Assembly: GCF_008727865.1 (NCBI RefSeq)
Contig: NZ_VTWU01000001.1
Span: forward strand, 744,001-808,000
From: Hymenobacter busanensis
GTDB lineage: Bacteria > Bacteroidota > Bacteroidia > Cytophagales > Hymenobacteraceae
Direction of reading: 5' to 3'
DNA: 64,000 nt
Position 1 is the first letter of the stretch. Every line of letters begins with the position of its first letter. The notes under the pieces are model-generated. The model was not told where the DNA came from. It searched no databases and saw only the letters and a program-made list of their open reading frames with translations. A program made the translations under genes and the position numbers. Shown here piece by piece: positions 2,816 through 60,196 of the stretch.

Positions 2816-3841
2816 GTGCCCGCGTCCTCGTCCTCACCCGTTTTTCGCGAAAACTCCACTGCCGCCCGGCTGCTGCCGGCTGGGCCGGGCCGCTATGCGT
2901 GGGAGGTGCGCGAGGGGTTTGCCGAAGCATCGACCAAGGCCTTGGCGTCGGAGCTGTTCCTGTACCAGCAACCCGCGCAACTGGGCGCCAATCCATCGTC
3001 CGCAACCGAACTGCTGGCTACCCTCACCGACGCTGACTCAGGCCTCATCGTGGGCTGGTGGCCGTTGCGCCTCGCCCCCGATGGCCGGGCCGTCAGCCTC
3101 GACCAAGCACCCTTCGGGGGGCCGGACTTGCTGTCGTCGGCCGTGCCCTTGGCCGTGGTTCGTGCCTGGATTGCCGCTACCGAAGGCGAAATGCGCGCCC
3201 GGGGCGCCCGGCACTGTATGCTGCGGCTGCCCGCGCTGGCCTACGCGCCGCCGGCCATAGCGCGCGTGGCCGAGGCCCTGCGGCTAAGCGGCTACCGCAC
3301 CGTACTGGCCGAGGTCAACAACCATTTGCCATTCGCCGAGGCGTACGAAACGCGGCTGCATCCCTCGGAGCGGCGGCGGCTGCACAAGTGCCAGCGCCAC
3401 GGCATGCGCGTGGAGCAGGAGCCGCGCCTGCTGCTGCCGTTGGCGTACGCGTTTATGCGTCGCTGCCGGGAAGAGAAAGGCCAGGCCTTGTCGCTCAGCG
3501 AAGCCCAGCTGACCGAACTGTTTCAGCGCTTTCCCAACAATTACTTCCTGTTTTCGGTACGCGATGCGGCCGGCGAATGGGCCGCCATGACGGTGGCCGT
3601 GCTGGTCGGCAACGGCGTGCTCTATAATTTTTACCCTGCCAGTCCGCTGCACCTCAACGCTTTTAGCCCGGTGGTGCTGTTGAATGCCGGGCTGCACGCT
3701 TTTGGGCAAGCCAGCGGCCTGCGTCTGCTCGATTTGGGCACCAGCACCCTGCCCACCGGGCTGAACGAGTCGCTGCTGCGCTTCAAGCGCCATTTGGGCG
3801 GCGTGCCCAGCCTGAAACTTACGCTGGAGAAAACGTTGTAG
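2816..3841 (+). CDS. FemAB/GNAT-like acyltransferase
   Basis: The protein has about 341 residues if it starts at the GTG downstream of the promoter-like TATTTTG. The C-terminal half resembles FemAB/GNAT-fold acyltransferases: a basic run (LHPSERRRLHKCQRHGM), then a strand-rich segment with LFSVRDAAGEWAAMTVAVL and NFYPASPLHLNAFSPVVLL, and a last motif LRLLDLGTSTLPTGLNESLL, close to the GTS-x-N-x-x-L-x-x-F-K pattern of FemAB-like proteins in polysaccharide loci. It is followed after 58 bases by a flippase and then a GT2 gene on the same strand, so it probably modifies a surface sugar or lipid carrier. The substrate cannot be read from the sequence. Confidence 0.65.
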   Translation: MPASSSSPVFRENSTAARLLPAGPGRYAWEVREGFAEASTKALASELFLYQQPAQLGANPSSATELLATLTDADSGLIVGWWPLRLAPDGRAVSLDQAPFGGPDLLSSAVPLAVVRAWIAATEGEMRARGARHCMLRLPALAYAPPAIARVAEALRLSGYRTVLAEVNNHLPFAEAYETRLHPSERRRLHKCQRHGMRVEQEPRLLLPLAYAFMRRCREEKGQALSLSEAQLTELFQRFPNNYFLFSVRDAAGEWAAMTVAVLVGNGVLYNFYPASPLHLNAFSPVVLLNAGLHAFGQASGLRLLDLGTSTLPTGLNESLLRFKRHLGGVPSLKLTLEKTL

Positions 3842-40699: not shown

Positions 40700-41173
40700 C
40701 TACAGTAACGCCCGCTGCGCCTCAATCCGCTCGTACCCTTCGTCGATGAGCAAGGGGCCGCGCAGGGCGCTGCGCACGGCCAGCTGGTCGCACCGCTCGT
40801 TTTCGGCGTGGCCCGCGTGGCCTTTGATCCACTTAAACTGCACAATGCGCTGCCGGTACACTTTCAGGAAGCGGCGCCACAAATCTTCGTTGGCTTTCTT
40901 GCCGAAGTCGGCCTTTTTTTCCCAGCCAAACACCCACTTTTTGTCCACCGATTCCACTACGTACTTCGAGTCGGAGACGACCGTGATGGGAATATCGGGC
41001 CGTGTGACGGCCTCCAGGCCCACGATGACGGCCAGCAGCTCCATGCGGTTGTTGGTGGTCAGCCGGAAGCCCTGGGTGAGTTCTTTCTCGTGGGGGCCGT
41101 AGCGCAAAATGGTGCCGTAGCCGCCCGGCCCGGGGTTGCCGCGCGAAGAGCCGTCGGTGAAGAGGTAAATCAA
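40700..41173 (-). CDS. rnhA: Ribonuclease HI
   Basis: About 157 residues. The acidic active site is visible: Asp in YLFTDGSSRGNPGPGG, Glu in NNRMELLAVI, Asp in VVSDSKYVVE and the late Asp in ENERCDQLA; WIKGHAGHAENERCD holds the loop histidines. It cuts RNA in RNA-DNA hybrids. There is no ATG near the domain; TTG at 41173 (leading to LIYLFTDGSS) is the likely start. Upstream frames cross the inverted-repeat element. Confidence 0.9.
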   Translation of the reverse strand: MIYLFTDGSSRGNPGPGGYGTILRYGPHEKELTQGFRLTTNNRMELLAVIVGLEAVTRPDIPITVVSDSKYVVESVDKKWVFGWEKKADFGKKANEDLWRRFLKVYRQRIVQFKWIKGHAGHAENERCDQLAVRSALRGPLLIDEGYERIEAQRALL

Positions 41174-41176
41174 AAT

Positions 41177-41272
41177 GAATGTGACGAATGTGAAAATGTG
41201 CGTGAAGTGAAAATACACGGATGGAGAAAGGCATTTCTCACACCCAGCCACATTTTCACATTCCGCACATTC
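41177..41272. repeat. Intergenic inverted-repeat element with GAATGTG repeats
   Basis: Left arm 41177-41200 and right arm 41249-41272 are 24-base inverted repeats with 22 matches; each holds two or three copies of GAATGTG. The 48-base middle has an inner hairpin (GAGAAAGGCATTTCTC). It ends two bases from the marC stop and four bases from the rnhA start. Confidence 0.75.
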
Positions 41273-41274
41273 AA

Positions 41275-41856
41275 TTAAAAGTTCTGCTTGAAGAGCTTGA
41301 TGGCAATGGCGAGCAGAATCACGCCGAACACACGGCGCAGGATGTCTTCGCCGGCTTTGCCGAGTTTGCGCTCAATCCAGGCGCTGCTTTTCAGCACCAG
41401 GTACACGAACACGAGGTTGACCACGATGCCCACCAGCACGTTGGGTAGCGAAAACACCGCCCTGAGCGAAATCAGCGTCGTCATGGTGCCCGCGCCGACG
41501 ATGAGCGGAAAAGCCAGCGGCACGACGGCGCCGGAGCCCGAAGCCAGCGGGTTGTGGCGGAAAATCTCCACGCCCAGCACCATTTCCAGCGCAATGAAGA
41601 AAATGATGAGCGAGCCGGCCAGGGCAAACGAGGCTAGGTCGACTCCAAACAAGGCCAGAATGCTCTGCCCCAGAAACAGGAAGGCCACCATCAGCACGCC
41701 CGCTACCACCGTGGCCACTTCGGCGTTGATGGTACCCTCGCGCTGCCGAATCTGAATGATGATGGGGATGGACCCCAGGATGTCGATGATGGCAAACAGC
41801 GTGAGCGTCACCGACGAAATTTGCTTCAGCGAAAACGTGGCTGCGAGGTCGGGCAT
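41275..41856 (-). CDS. MarC-family membrane protein
   Basis: 193 residues from MPDLAATFSLKQISS with six helices. The MarC signature is visible in ALFGVDLASFALAGSLIIFF and LASGSGAVVPLAFPLIVGAG, ending VFGVILLAIAIKLF. MarC proteins (YhgN/MarC) were once linked to multiple antibiotic resistance but their transport role is unsettled. It starts 24 bases from the stop of an aminotransferase gene, so they are probably cotranscribed. A longer open frame running upstream crosses that gene and is not real. Confidence 0.9.
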   Translation of the reverse strand: MPDLAATFSLKQISSVTLTLFAIIDILGSIPIIIQIRQREGTINAEVATVVAGVLMVAFLFLGQSILALFGVDLASFALAGSLIIFFIALEMVLGVEIFRHNPLASGSGAVVPLAFPLIVGAGTMTTLISLRAVFSLPNVLVGIVVNLVFVYLVLKSSAWIERKLGKAGEDILRRVFGVILLAIAIKLFKQNF

Positions 41857-56695: not shown

Positions 56696-57568
56696 ATGGC
56701 CATTGCCAACTCCGAGCTGATTCTGAACGCCGATGGTAGCATTTACCACCTGAACCTGCTGCCCGACCACATTTCCGATACCATCATCACCGTCGGCGAC
56801 CCCGACCGCGTGGCGCAGGTGAGCCGGCATTTCGATTCCATCGAAACCGAAATCAGCAAGCGCGAATTTGTGACGCACGTGGGCTACTACCGCGGCAAAC
56901 GCCTGACGGTCGTTTCTACCGGCATCGGTACCGATAACCTCGACATCGTGCTCAACGAGCTGGACGCACTGGTAAACATCGACTTCGTCACGCGCCAGCC
57001 GCTACCCATCGAAGAGCACATCAAGCTGCGCATCATTCGCATCGGCACCAGCGGCACCATGCAGCCCGATATTCCGGTCGGCTCGCACCTGGTGTCGGAG
57101 CACGCCATTGGGCTGGAGTCGCTGATGCAGTTTTACCCGCTGGTGGAAACCGGGGCCGAAGTGGAGTTTGCCACCGCCGTGCAGCAAGCCGTGGGCCTCG
57201 ACTACCGCCCGTACTGCGTGCTCGGCTCCGATTTGCTGCGCGAGCAGCTGGGCGTGGGCATGATTTCGGGCAACACCGTGACGTGCCCCGGCTTCTACGG
57301 TCCGCAGGGCCGCTCCCTGCGCCTCGCGCTGCGCTACCCCGACTTGCTGGAGCGCCTGCGCAGCGTGCAGTACTCGAATGCCGAAGGCACGTTCCGCCTC
57401 ACCAACTTCGAGATGGAAACGGCCGGCTACTACGCCCTGGGCCGCATGTTGGGCCACGAAGTGGTGTCGCTGAACGCCATAGTGGCCAACCGTGCTACCG
57501 GCGAGTTTGCCGAGCGCCCCGACCAAGTGGTAAACGATTTGATTGCCAAAACCCTAGAACGCCTGTAG
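56696..57568 (+). CDS. Nucleoside phosphorylase (uridine/purine type)
   Basis: 290 residues. The phosphate-binding GDPDRVAQVSRHF (about 34-46) and the sugar/phosphate loop with IIRIGTSGTMQPDIPVGS, then NFEMETAGYYALG at the purine/uridine site, match the PNP/UDP superfamily I. It cleaves nucleosides to base and ribose-1-phosphate; uridine is likely given the general class, but purine cannot be excluded. Its stop codon directly abuts the inverted-repeat element at 57569. Confidence 0.9.
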   Translation: MAIANSELILNADGSIYHLNLLPDHISDTIITVGDPDRVAQVSRHFDSIETEISKREFVTHVGYYRGKRLTVVSTGIGTDNLDIVLNELDALVNIDFVTRQPLPIEEHIKLRIIRIGTSGTMQPDIPVGSHLVSEHAIGLESLMQFYPLVETGAEVEFATAVQQAVGLDYRPYCVLGSDLLREQLGVGMISGNTVTCPGFYGPQGRSLRLALRYPDLLERLRSVQYSNAEGTFRLTNFEMETAGYYALGRMLGHEVVSLNAIVANRATGEFAERPDQVVNDLIAKTLERL

Positions 57569-57751
57569 CCACGGATTCGGGCGGATTACGGATGGATGTC
57601 ACGGATTTTGTGGAAGGCACATCGGAAGTTTCTATCCAAAGCAAGAGCCACCCGTTTGGGGTGGCTCTTGCTTTTAATGCCTATTGGAAAAGCAGAGTTG
57701 AATCGTCCCCTAGATCTGTGACATCCGTCCGTAATTCGTCCGAATCCGTGG
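57569..57751. repeat. Inverted-repeat element A with central terminator
   Basis: 37-base arms at 57569-57605 and 57715-57751 pair in 33 of 37 positions; all four mismatches are transitions that leave G-U pairs in plus-strand RNA. Arms are built of CGGATT repeats. The terminator at 57638-57674 lies at the centre. The element fills exactly the space between the TAG of the phosphorylase and the TGA of the convergent small membrane protein. Confidence 0.85.
57638..57674. terminator. Terminator inside element A
   Basis: AAAGCAAGAGCCACCC pairs with GGGTGGCTCTTGCTTT around GTTTG-type loop bases. It resembles the terminator in element B. Confidence 0.88.
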
Positions 57752-57970
57752 TCAGATGATGCCGCCGCCAATGAACAACCGCAAGCAGGCAATGAGAATA
57801 GCCACGCCATTGAGAATCAGGCCGGTTCTGCGTTTGCCAAACGCCCCGATGATTAGCCCAATGACAGCCAGAATCAGGATAAACCAATTGGCCCAGCCCA
57901 GCAGCGGAAACAAAGCTAGCACGGCCAGCAGGAGCACCACAATGCCCCAAAGCGTGGAAATGATGTTCAT
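57752..57970 (-). CDS. Small membrane protein
   Basis: 72 residues, nearly all hydrophobic, with two or three helices (IISTLWGIVVLLLAVLALFP, WANWFILILAVIGLIIGAFG, TGLILNGVAILIACLRLF) and a short basic loop (GKRRTG). No motif is known. The frame is closed by a TGA next to element A. The hydrophobic helix pattern and clean flanks support a real gene; it may be a small membrane-inserting or regulatory peptide. Confidence 0.7.
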   Translation of the reverse strand: MNIISTLWGIVVLLLAVLALFPLLGWANWFILILAVIGLIIGAFGKRRTGLILNGVAILIACLRLFIGGGII

Positions 57971-59699: not shown

Positions 59700-60050
59700 A
59701 TGGCCATCATGATAACCGACGAGTGCATCAACTGCGGTGCCTGCGAACCGGAATGCCCCAACAACGCCATTTACGAAGGCGGCGCCAACTGGCGCTGGGC
59801 CGACGGCACGACGCTCAAAGGCACGATTGAGGTCGATGGCGGCAAGCAGGTGGACGCTACCAGCCCACAAGTGCCGGTGTCGGACGAGTATTACTACATC
59901 GTGTCGGACAAGTGCACCGAGTGCGTGGGTTTCCACGAAGAGCCCCAGTGCGCCGCCGTGTGCCCCGTCGACTGCTGCGTAGACGACCCCGACTACCGCG
60001 AAACCCAGGAGCGCCTGCTCCAGAAGAAAGACTGGCTGCACATCGCCTAG
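59700..60050 (+). CDS. 2x[4Fe-4S] ferredoxin
   Basis: 116 residues. The first cluster set is [12 protein letters not shown] (Cys9, 12, 15, 19) and the second has [18 protein letters not shown] (Cys72, 75, 84, 88), with a spare Cys92-93. The 50-residue insert between them has strands and is typical of the Bacteroidota form. It carries low-potential electrons, here likely for the divergent acyl-CoA reductase (start sites 175 bases apart). Its stop is 2 bases before element B. Confidence 0.95.
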
Positions 60051-60052
60051 GA

Positions 60053-60195
60053 CCACGGATTCTTGCGGATTCCGCGGACGATGATTCAAGCAAAAAGCCA
60101 CTCCGCAGGGAGTGGCTTTTTGCTTTCGGGAAAGAAGACTTCCTGAGCTGCGGATCGGACACTGAACCGTCCACAAAATCCGCGAGAATCCGTGG
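60053..60195. repeat. Inverted-repeat element B with central terminator
   Basis: 27-base arms (60053-60079 and 60169-60195) pair in 23 of 27 positions, with CCACGGATTCT as the outer end. All four differences are transitions. The terminator at 60088-60125 lies inside. It is related to element A in its arms and in the terminator stem. It fills the gap between the ferredoxin TAG (2 bases) and the TGA of the sugar amidotransferase (1 base). Confidence 0.85.
60088..60125. terminator. Terminator inside element B
   Basis: AAGCAAAAAGCCACTCC pairs with GGAGTGGCTTTTTGCTT around GCAG, a 17-pair stem. Confidence 0.9.
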
Positions 60196-60196
60196 T

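Follow-up and report, generated by a model that had tools for sequence, protein, structure and literature searches.

The spacer between a phosphorylase gene and a convergent small gene of Hymenobacter busanensis is occupied by a palindromic element, element A, which is probably an orphan, gene-less and non-autonomous relic of a family of palindromic elements linked to GxxExxY genes and presumably mobilised by the GxxExxY nuclease. Arms related to those of element A lie at the borders of unrelated genes, enclose a GxxExxY gene in a congener, and are built from a short word that follows the GxxExxY protein tree. In the following, the window is the whole stretch of 64,000 nucleotides that was analysed, with positions counted from its first letter.

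Element A and related arms at gene borders

Element A (57569–57751), delimited by open reading frames, repeat search and shuffles, is a gene-less word-repeat inverted repeat that runs from stop codon to stop codon. According to the ORF coordinates, its 183 nt exactly fill the spacer between a gene of the phosphorylase superfamily (PNP_UDP_1 by Pfam; 56696–57568, plus strand, ending in TAG) and a convergent gene of 72 amino acids (57752–57970, minus strand, ending in TGA), called a small membrane protein in the earlier note, whose product had no Pfam match at E 0.001. The exact fit between TAG and TGA described in that note is borne out by these coordinates. An inverted-repeat search delimited a left arm (57569–57614, plus strand) with four CGGAT words, the CCACGG end of which abuts the phosphorylase TAG, and a right arm (57706–57751, minus strand), the CCACGG end of which abuts the TGA of the small membrane protein gene. 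The arms are 46 nt long and 85% complementary. They surround a central stem (57638–57674) in which 57638–57653 pairs with 57659–57674 over 16 bp at 100% complementarity, closed by a loop of 5 nt. From this stem and its CTTTT end, a function as terminator, probably in both directions, is plausible; the stem is absent from the list of a consensus terminator scan, which asks for at least five T in eight bases.

The earlier note had counted 33 pairs over arms of 37 bases, with all four mismatches being transitions that give G-U pairs in the plus-strand RNA, and this count is correct. Over the 46-nt pairing there are seven mismatches, namely five transitions giving plus-strand G-U pairs and two others. 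The G-U pattern is a property of copy A and not of the element family: as a family trait it was rejected, with mixed plus and minus counts (from 4/1 to 0/3) among the seven other elements that could be aligned without large shifts. In the left arm, CGGAT words start at positions 4, 14, 21 and 34; in the right arm, when variants are counted, they start at 4, 14, 25 and 34. The repeated words reported before are thus present, at a spacing of 7–13 bases instead of 9–10. The plus-strand RNA of element A folds at −113.8 kcal/mol (z −14.6), a value that none of 200 shuffles equalled, and the minus-strand fold has a z of −12.0 against shuffles. The long-loop inverted-repeat score is 28.5, versus 11.5 for the best of 1000 dinucleotide shuffles. 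An Rfam covariance-model search of element A returned only RNAI, an identity that was dropped because its 23.7 bits lie far under the gathering threshold of 47.

A second, more degenerate copy, element B (60053–60195; 60052–60080 and 60168–60196 in the repeat search), has the same layout. It lies between the stop codon of a ferredoxin gene (TAG, 60048–60050) and that of a convergent gene (TCA from 60197), and its central stem (60088–60125, from sequence analysis) has 17 bp and a 4-nt loop. We read the translation of the convergent gene as ATP-pyrophosphatase-like; it had no Pfam match at E 0.001. Further copies were found in the genome by a search of the kind proposed in the earlier note (some 15–23 related arms). 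A DNA search with element A gave seven matches, at A itself and at four other places, and CCACGGATTNNNNCGGATT matched the 4.89 Mb genome 15 times with at most one mismatch (reversed control, 0) and 23 times with at most two (reversed control, 3). The arm consensus is approximately CCACGGATT, followed by one to three more CGGATT words and then TTGTGGACG, and arms occur singly or as inverted pairs. In five genomes, an inverted partner within 700 nt was detected for 32 of 70 arms; the count of 38 arms without a detected partner within this distance includes the effect of a search pattern that misses degenerate arms. Arm likeness was 0.861 within one element and 0.82 between elements of one genome, and a strong model in which arms are copied from each other was dropped on this basis. 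Near-perfect arm pairs were found at the phosphorylase locus of some relatives (100% in L087, 98% in L159).

Three further sites are recorded here as side observations. At 41173–41276 the window holds a third inverted repeat made of words, here AATGTG (28 nt, 89%). It fills the spacer that begins at the stop codon of a gene read as MarC-like and ends at the likely start of one read as RNase H-like, both names being taken from the translations. Elsewhere in the genome, two divergent −7 boxes at a distance of about 25 nt have a one-word arm between them (L041; G000:C9:16007-16025), and the likely GTG start of a trpA-like gene falls inside a CGGATT arm end (L002/L019; G000:C3:440251-440300).

The position of arms relative to gene signals was surveyed in five genomes read in part, comprising the window's own, three congeners and one relative of another genus in the family. 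The 40 stretches of the four relatives were chosen for holding arms and cover a part of the arms of those genomes; the survey counts one word per arm and misses arms outside the search pattern. Of the 71 arms detected in the stretches read, 60 have their outer end no more than 4 nt away from a stop codon, a −7 box (consensus TAnnTTTG) or a start codon. The outer end lies at most 4 nt from a stop codon in 48 arms (39 of these at 0 or 1 nt), adjoins a −7 box in 10 and a start codon in 2, and meets none of these in 11. The stop-codon class accepts any open frame of at least 60 codons and includes one arm (L175) that reads more like a −7 box arm. As background, a stop codon of this class was found within 3 nt of 68 of the 3895 positions taken 15–200 nt further in. 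The suggestion in the earlier note of a dedicated module with copies between stop codons thus holds for the arms at stops, element B included, and is too narrow for those at −7 boxes and start codons.

At the phosphorylase locus of 80 Hymenobacteraceae genomes, script and reading together identified a CGGATT-type repeat in 13 spacers. Eleven of the 13 reach into or past the stop codon, and the other two start 8 nt (L163) and 12 nt (L108) after it; degenerate or cut-off arms that the script left unpaired were present in four more loci (L094, L102, L135 and L153). Other repeat families at this locus mostly start 2–43 nt after the stop codon, with L139 and L156 as exceptions, and several orthologous spacers hold a bare hairpin. 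At the ferredoxin locus, the script found a repeat in seven of eight genomes of the genus and none in the eighth (L169). The two CGGATT repeats start at −1 and +1 relative to the end of the stop codon, and the five of other families at +17 to +58. Convergent spacers therefore look like hot spots for several repeat families, of which only the CGGATT repeats are tight on the stop codon.

GxxExxY genes between word-repeat arms

In one congener (L204, 1989–2618), two CGGATT arms enclose a GxxExxY gene from stop codon to stop codon. Its product matched TIGR04256 (E 3.5e-41) and PF13366 (E 1.4e-39). In 23 relatives the invariant residues include the G, E and Y of the name motif, followed by D, E-x-K and Q...Y, a pattern which we take to be the core of a RecB-like nuclease, the activity being putative and read from sequence only. 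The GxxExxY proteins belong to the PD-(D/E)XK nuclease superfamily and are weakly Cas4-like. They share the invariant D and E-x-K with Cas4 and RecB-like nucleases, and Cas4b was their best, weak PADLOC match (E 7.9e-5); unlike those nucleases, they have no solved relative by sequence profile (0 matches to solved structures at E ≤ 1). A comparison with PHROGs gave weak matches only (best E 0.0065), and AlphaFold models of two sequences had a mean pLDDT of 34.5 and were left out of the analysis. The GxxExxY family is found in several phyla, and to our knowledge no role is known for it. Among 148 genomes sampled from the window's phylum it was matched in 74, with up to 12 matches in one genome. 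The window's genome gave no match in a PF13366 search, and elements A and B are without a GxxExxY gene, so that element A can be at most a non-autonomous member of the family.

The association of GxxExxY genes with inverted repeats was assessed by a flank test, in which the 400 nt to either side of the gene are searched for an inverted repeat around it, with two equal-sized flank windows per locus as controls; a score of at least 17 defines a strong repeat. Arms were allowed to overlap the gene by 40 nt in the GxxExxY and ParE tests and by 60 nt in the word-class and tree analysis and the S23 test. In the phylum sample, 29 of 56 loci had a strong repeat and 38 of 56 had any repeat, versus 0 and 1 of 112 control windows; these loci are the best matches of the sample, not a random draw, and 4 of 60 were skipped as too short. 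Further loci of the genomes searched with PF13366 gave similar values (strong, 24/36; any, 28/36; controls, 0/72 and 3/72). This set omits one fragment (L310), one locus at the same place as another (L311, as L237), a few more fragments and one gene at a contig end, and some of its 36 loci are themselves fragments or broken genes. Pooled, a strong flanking repeat was present at 53 of 92 GxxExxY loci and in 0 of 184 control windows (Fisher P 5e-32). The 39 loci without a strong repeat in this test, 26 of which had none at all, count against the reading that we favour. ParE toxin genes of the same genomes, which form another family of small accessory genes and were taken as the best 30 of a longer match list with one short locus skipped, had a strong repeat in 0 of 29 cases and any repeat in 2 of 29. 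The repeats flanking GxxExxY genes are mostly periodic short words, namely CGGATT, AGGATT, CACAGAG, CGCAGAGG, CGCTGAGG, CGCAAAG and others. Separately, in one congener (L174, 1972–2589) CGGATT arms enclose a different small gene, at what is apparently, judged by the flanks, the site of a 228-nt element without that gene in the window's genome (L005).

The arm word of element A, CGGATT, is also that of three GxxExxY-bearing elements in related genomes (L217, L227 and L228). A tree was made of the 47 proteins, from 89 read, whose loci had a repeat score of at least 17; 26 fell into a GGATT-like and 21 into an AGAG-like word class. On this tree the word class requires two changes, compared with a mean of 15.8 after shuffling and none of 500 shuffles as low, with labels that were chosen after the arms had been seen and by a rule that was revised once before the tree (earlier, L234 was in the other class and L276 in none). 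Judged from these sequences, arm word and GxxExxY protein evolve together. The arms of L204 are closer to other arms of their own genome (identity 0.897) than to those of four other genomes (0.72–0.82).

Gene-less arms tend to occur together with gene-bearing elements. At least five CGGATT arms were found in 9 of 58 genomes, and 4 of the 5 genomes that by reading hold a CGGATT-armed GxxExxY gene are among these nine (P 0.0014); a locus with one CGGATT word in its arms (L300) was left out of this gene count. The AGGATT family had matches in 16 of 58 genomes, with at least nine in eight genomes and up to 74. GxxExxY matches were present in seven of these eight AGGATT-rich genomes, one of which (G034) holds only pieces of a broken gene, versus 33 of 58 overall. 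One congener (G003) has 25 CGGATT arms and no GxxExxY match, like the window's genome. Arm-bearing genomes of this kind, without GxxExxY, would seem to retain relics; at the same time they speak against the arms depending strictly on the gene.

In all eight genomes of the genus, among them that of the window, the same two convergent genes flank the site at which L204 has its gene-bearing element, and the spacer between them measures 97–631 nt. The site holds the gene-bearing element in one genome, gene-less CGGATT arms around a CATTGCGAG-type repeat in one, a single CGGATT arm beside such a repeat in one, that or a related repeat alone in four, and in the window's genome only a hairpin. Since the contents vary and the neighbours stay, occupancy is patchy. 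As a side observation, convergent spacers are often occupied by a second repeat family (GTCATTGCGAGCGAAGC...GCTTCGCTCGCAATGAC) that surrounds a stem like AACAGCACCGCCCGAAAC (L167, L332, L333, L335 and others); this family can be nested inside CGGATT arms (L189 and L334).

Both GxxExxY genes found on viral contigs are flanked by word repeats. In L317 these are CACGGAT words (18 nt, 83%), the score of 10.5 lying below the strict cut; in L318 a 48-nt repeat of CACAAAG/CACGAAG words scores 23, and a gene-less CACAAAG-word element (3658–3763) with arms similar to those of the GxxExxY gene lies 1.3 kb from it. Further viral scans returned the same two loci and three short partial matches only, and a search of phage records returned none. 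On plasmids, five of eight matches were used (from Bacteroidota, Spirochaetota, Fusobacteriota, Gemmatimonadota and Pseudomonadota). None of the five passes the flank test at an overlap of 40 nt, one (L316) passes once 60 nt is allowed, and word-like repeats near some others were noted by eye. On the basis of these few loci, GxxExxY word-repeat elements are likely to be general across phyla.

S23 genes (23S_rRNA_IVP, PF05635), which encode four-helix-bundle proteins, gave a comparable result. Among 30 loci of relatives (L344–L373), which are the best 30 of a longer match list, one was skipped as short; 15 of the remaining 29 had a strong repeat and 22 had any, versus 0 and 1 of 58 control windows. 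Their arm words, such as AAGACACAAGAC, TTAGTTG and TTCGTTG, differ from those of GxxExxY genes. Word repeats thus surround S23 genes too, which are unrelated to GxxExxY, and the arms may be part of a more general system. This result works both ways, in that it favours a broader class of palindromic elements with small genes and weakens GxxExxY as the sole account of the architecture.

Alternative explanations and known systems

The arms could be the ends of a miniature element that is moved by a conventional transposase, with GxxExxY as a frequent passenger. We consider this unlikely. The terminal inverted repeats are MITE-like, as are the large number of gene-less copies and the patchy occupancy, and the S23 genes found within word-repeat arms (15/29) suggest that a small gene could be cargo. 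A passenger, however, need not track the arms, and the word class does track the GxxExxY tree (2 versus ~16 changes). ParE genes, moreover, are without strong repeats (0/29; weak ones, 2/29), and no direct target repeat is visible next to either end of A or B as read from the sequence, the empty sites being too diverged to settle target duplication. The element A family resembles MITEs in that gene-less copies share terminal inverted repeats with fewer gene-bearing copies. It differs in that its ends adjoin gene signals, that its arms are word arrays and that no target duplication was seen. Nor was a conventional transposase seen at the loci that were read, GxxExxY being the only gene identified between such arms.

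A second alternative, which we rate as improbable, is an element acting on RNA level like the rRNA intervening sequences, in which the duplex is cut by RNase III so that convergent 3' ends are removed or uncoupled, and which spreads passively. According to the accessible part of PMC4990558, rRNA intervening sequences have complementary borders, are substrates of RNase III and in some cases contain an S23 ORF. As described there, they resemble the element A family in being short, patchy elements with complementary borders, an optional small ORF and a very stable stem. The very stable plus-strand fold of A and the presence of S23 genes between word arms in our genomes would fit this explanation. 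Unlike element A, the intervening sequences lie in rRNA; A lies between protein genes, its linked gene is GxxExxY and its arms are periodic words, and the word arms of S23 genes in these genomes are of a different kind from those of GxxExxY. Arms at promoters (10/71) and arms without a detected partner (38/70) would form no duplex, the G-U pattern is specific to A among the elements compared, and both the spread of copies and the nuclease linkage would be unaccounted for.

It is very improbable that a host DNA-binding protein marks gene borders by binding to the arms, which would have spread by gene conversion, the association with GxxExxY being secondary. The period of the words is near the helical repeat and 60 of 71 arms lie at gene signals, as would be expected for such sites; the word variants nevertheless differ between genomes, the words track the GxxExxY tree, and several related genomes had no match to the CGGATT or AGGATT pattern. 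A strong bidirectional terminator that evolved locally, with the long arms as an extended stem, accords with the central stems of A and B and with the bare hairpin in several orthologous spacers, and was rejected as scarcely credible, being contradicted by related arms at unrelated genes, here and in other genomes, at promoters and around a gene of a nuclease family.

Other intergenic repeats provide partial parallels. REP/BIME sequences are likewise intergenic, palindromic and present in several copies; REPs measure 20–40 bp in the accessible part of PMC3733652, in contrast to the 183 nt, 46-nt arms and long loop of A. The TAACTGA direct repeats of Beggiatoaceae, also reported for five Bacteroidetes in the accessible part of PMC4679880, similarly form short-word arrays in spacers, within several nucleotides of gene signals and patchy across phyla. 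They differ in being almost all direct and near start codons, and that part of PMC4679880 names no gene family as their mover. In the accessible parts of the open-access literature retrieved with the GxxExxY name and accession, flanking repeats are not mentioned, and exact repeat words returned nothing from open-access literature. On the basis of this literature, the element family is apparently undescribed so far.

Proposed mechanism and implications

We return to a GxxExxY-mobilised family as the probable origin of element A. The family, its architecture, the link to the gene, the joint evolution of protein and arm word and the patchy filling of orthologous sites follow from the data; mobility by GxxExxY, the route of insertion, termination and RNase III cutting are inferred. 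Full members consist of two inverted arms, with a short word every ~7–13 bases, around a GxxExxY gene. The GxxExxY nuclease would recognise the word arms, either as words in duplex DNA or in the form of a hairpin, extruded or single-stranded. Its action would allow the arms to be copied into further spacers together with the DNA that they enclose. Copies without the gene, A among them, would be taken along for as long as the genome has a nuclease of the matching word class; once the nuclease is lost, as in the window's genome, these copies would stay as relics. Insertions would survive where the arm end meets a stop codon, −7 box or start codon and leaves it unbroken, and we propose that the element fills its spacer exactly because only such insertions survive. 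The central stem of A would probably end transcription from both flanking genes, and read-through RNA could fold into a long duplex that RNase III might cut, by analogy with rRNA intervening sequences.

Two further points weigh on this explanation. The data analysed show neither a transposition event nor a target duplication or excision product, which counts against it. Insertion of a unit at one point should leave the old spacer outside the arms, and almost none remains, so that the insertion route is unexplained. As a wider proposal, which we advance tentatively and with less than even confidence, GxxExxY proteins could be the mobilising enzymes of palindromic elements across phyla (GGATT-like and AGAG-like), each clade reading its own word. 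Many short-word repeats at gene ends, A included, would then be non-autonomous copies, a hairpin or junction route would swap the whole spacer and spare stop codons and −7 boxes, and the S23 genes would form a parallel second lineage.

GxxExxY proteins, which form a large family of orphan nucleases, are given a testable role by this work, and a likely origin is proposed for a class of inverted repeats of short words that occupy gene borders. If confirmed, the proposal would define a small class of mobile elements without a recognised transposase, and it may explain the bidirectional hairpin modules that sit exactly between convergent genes.
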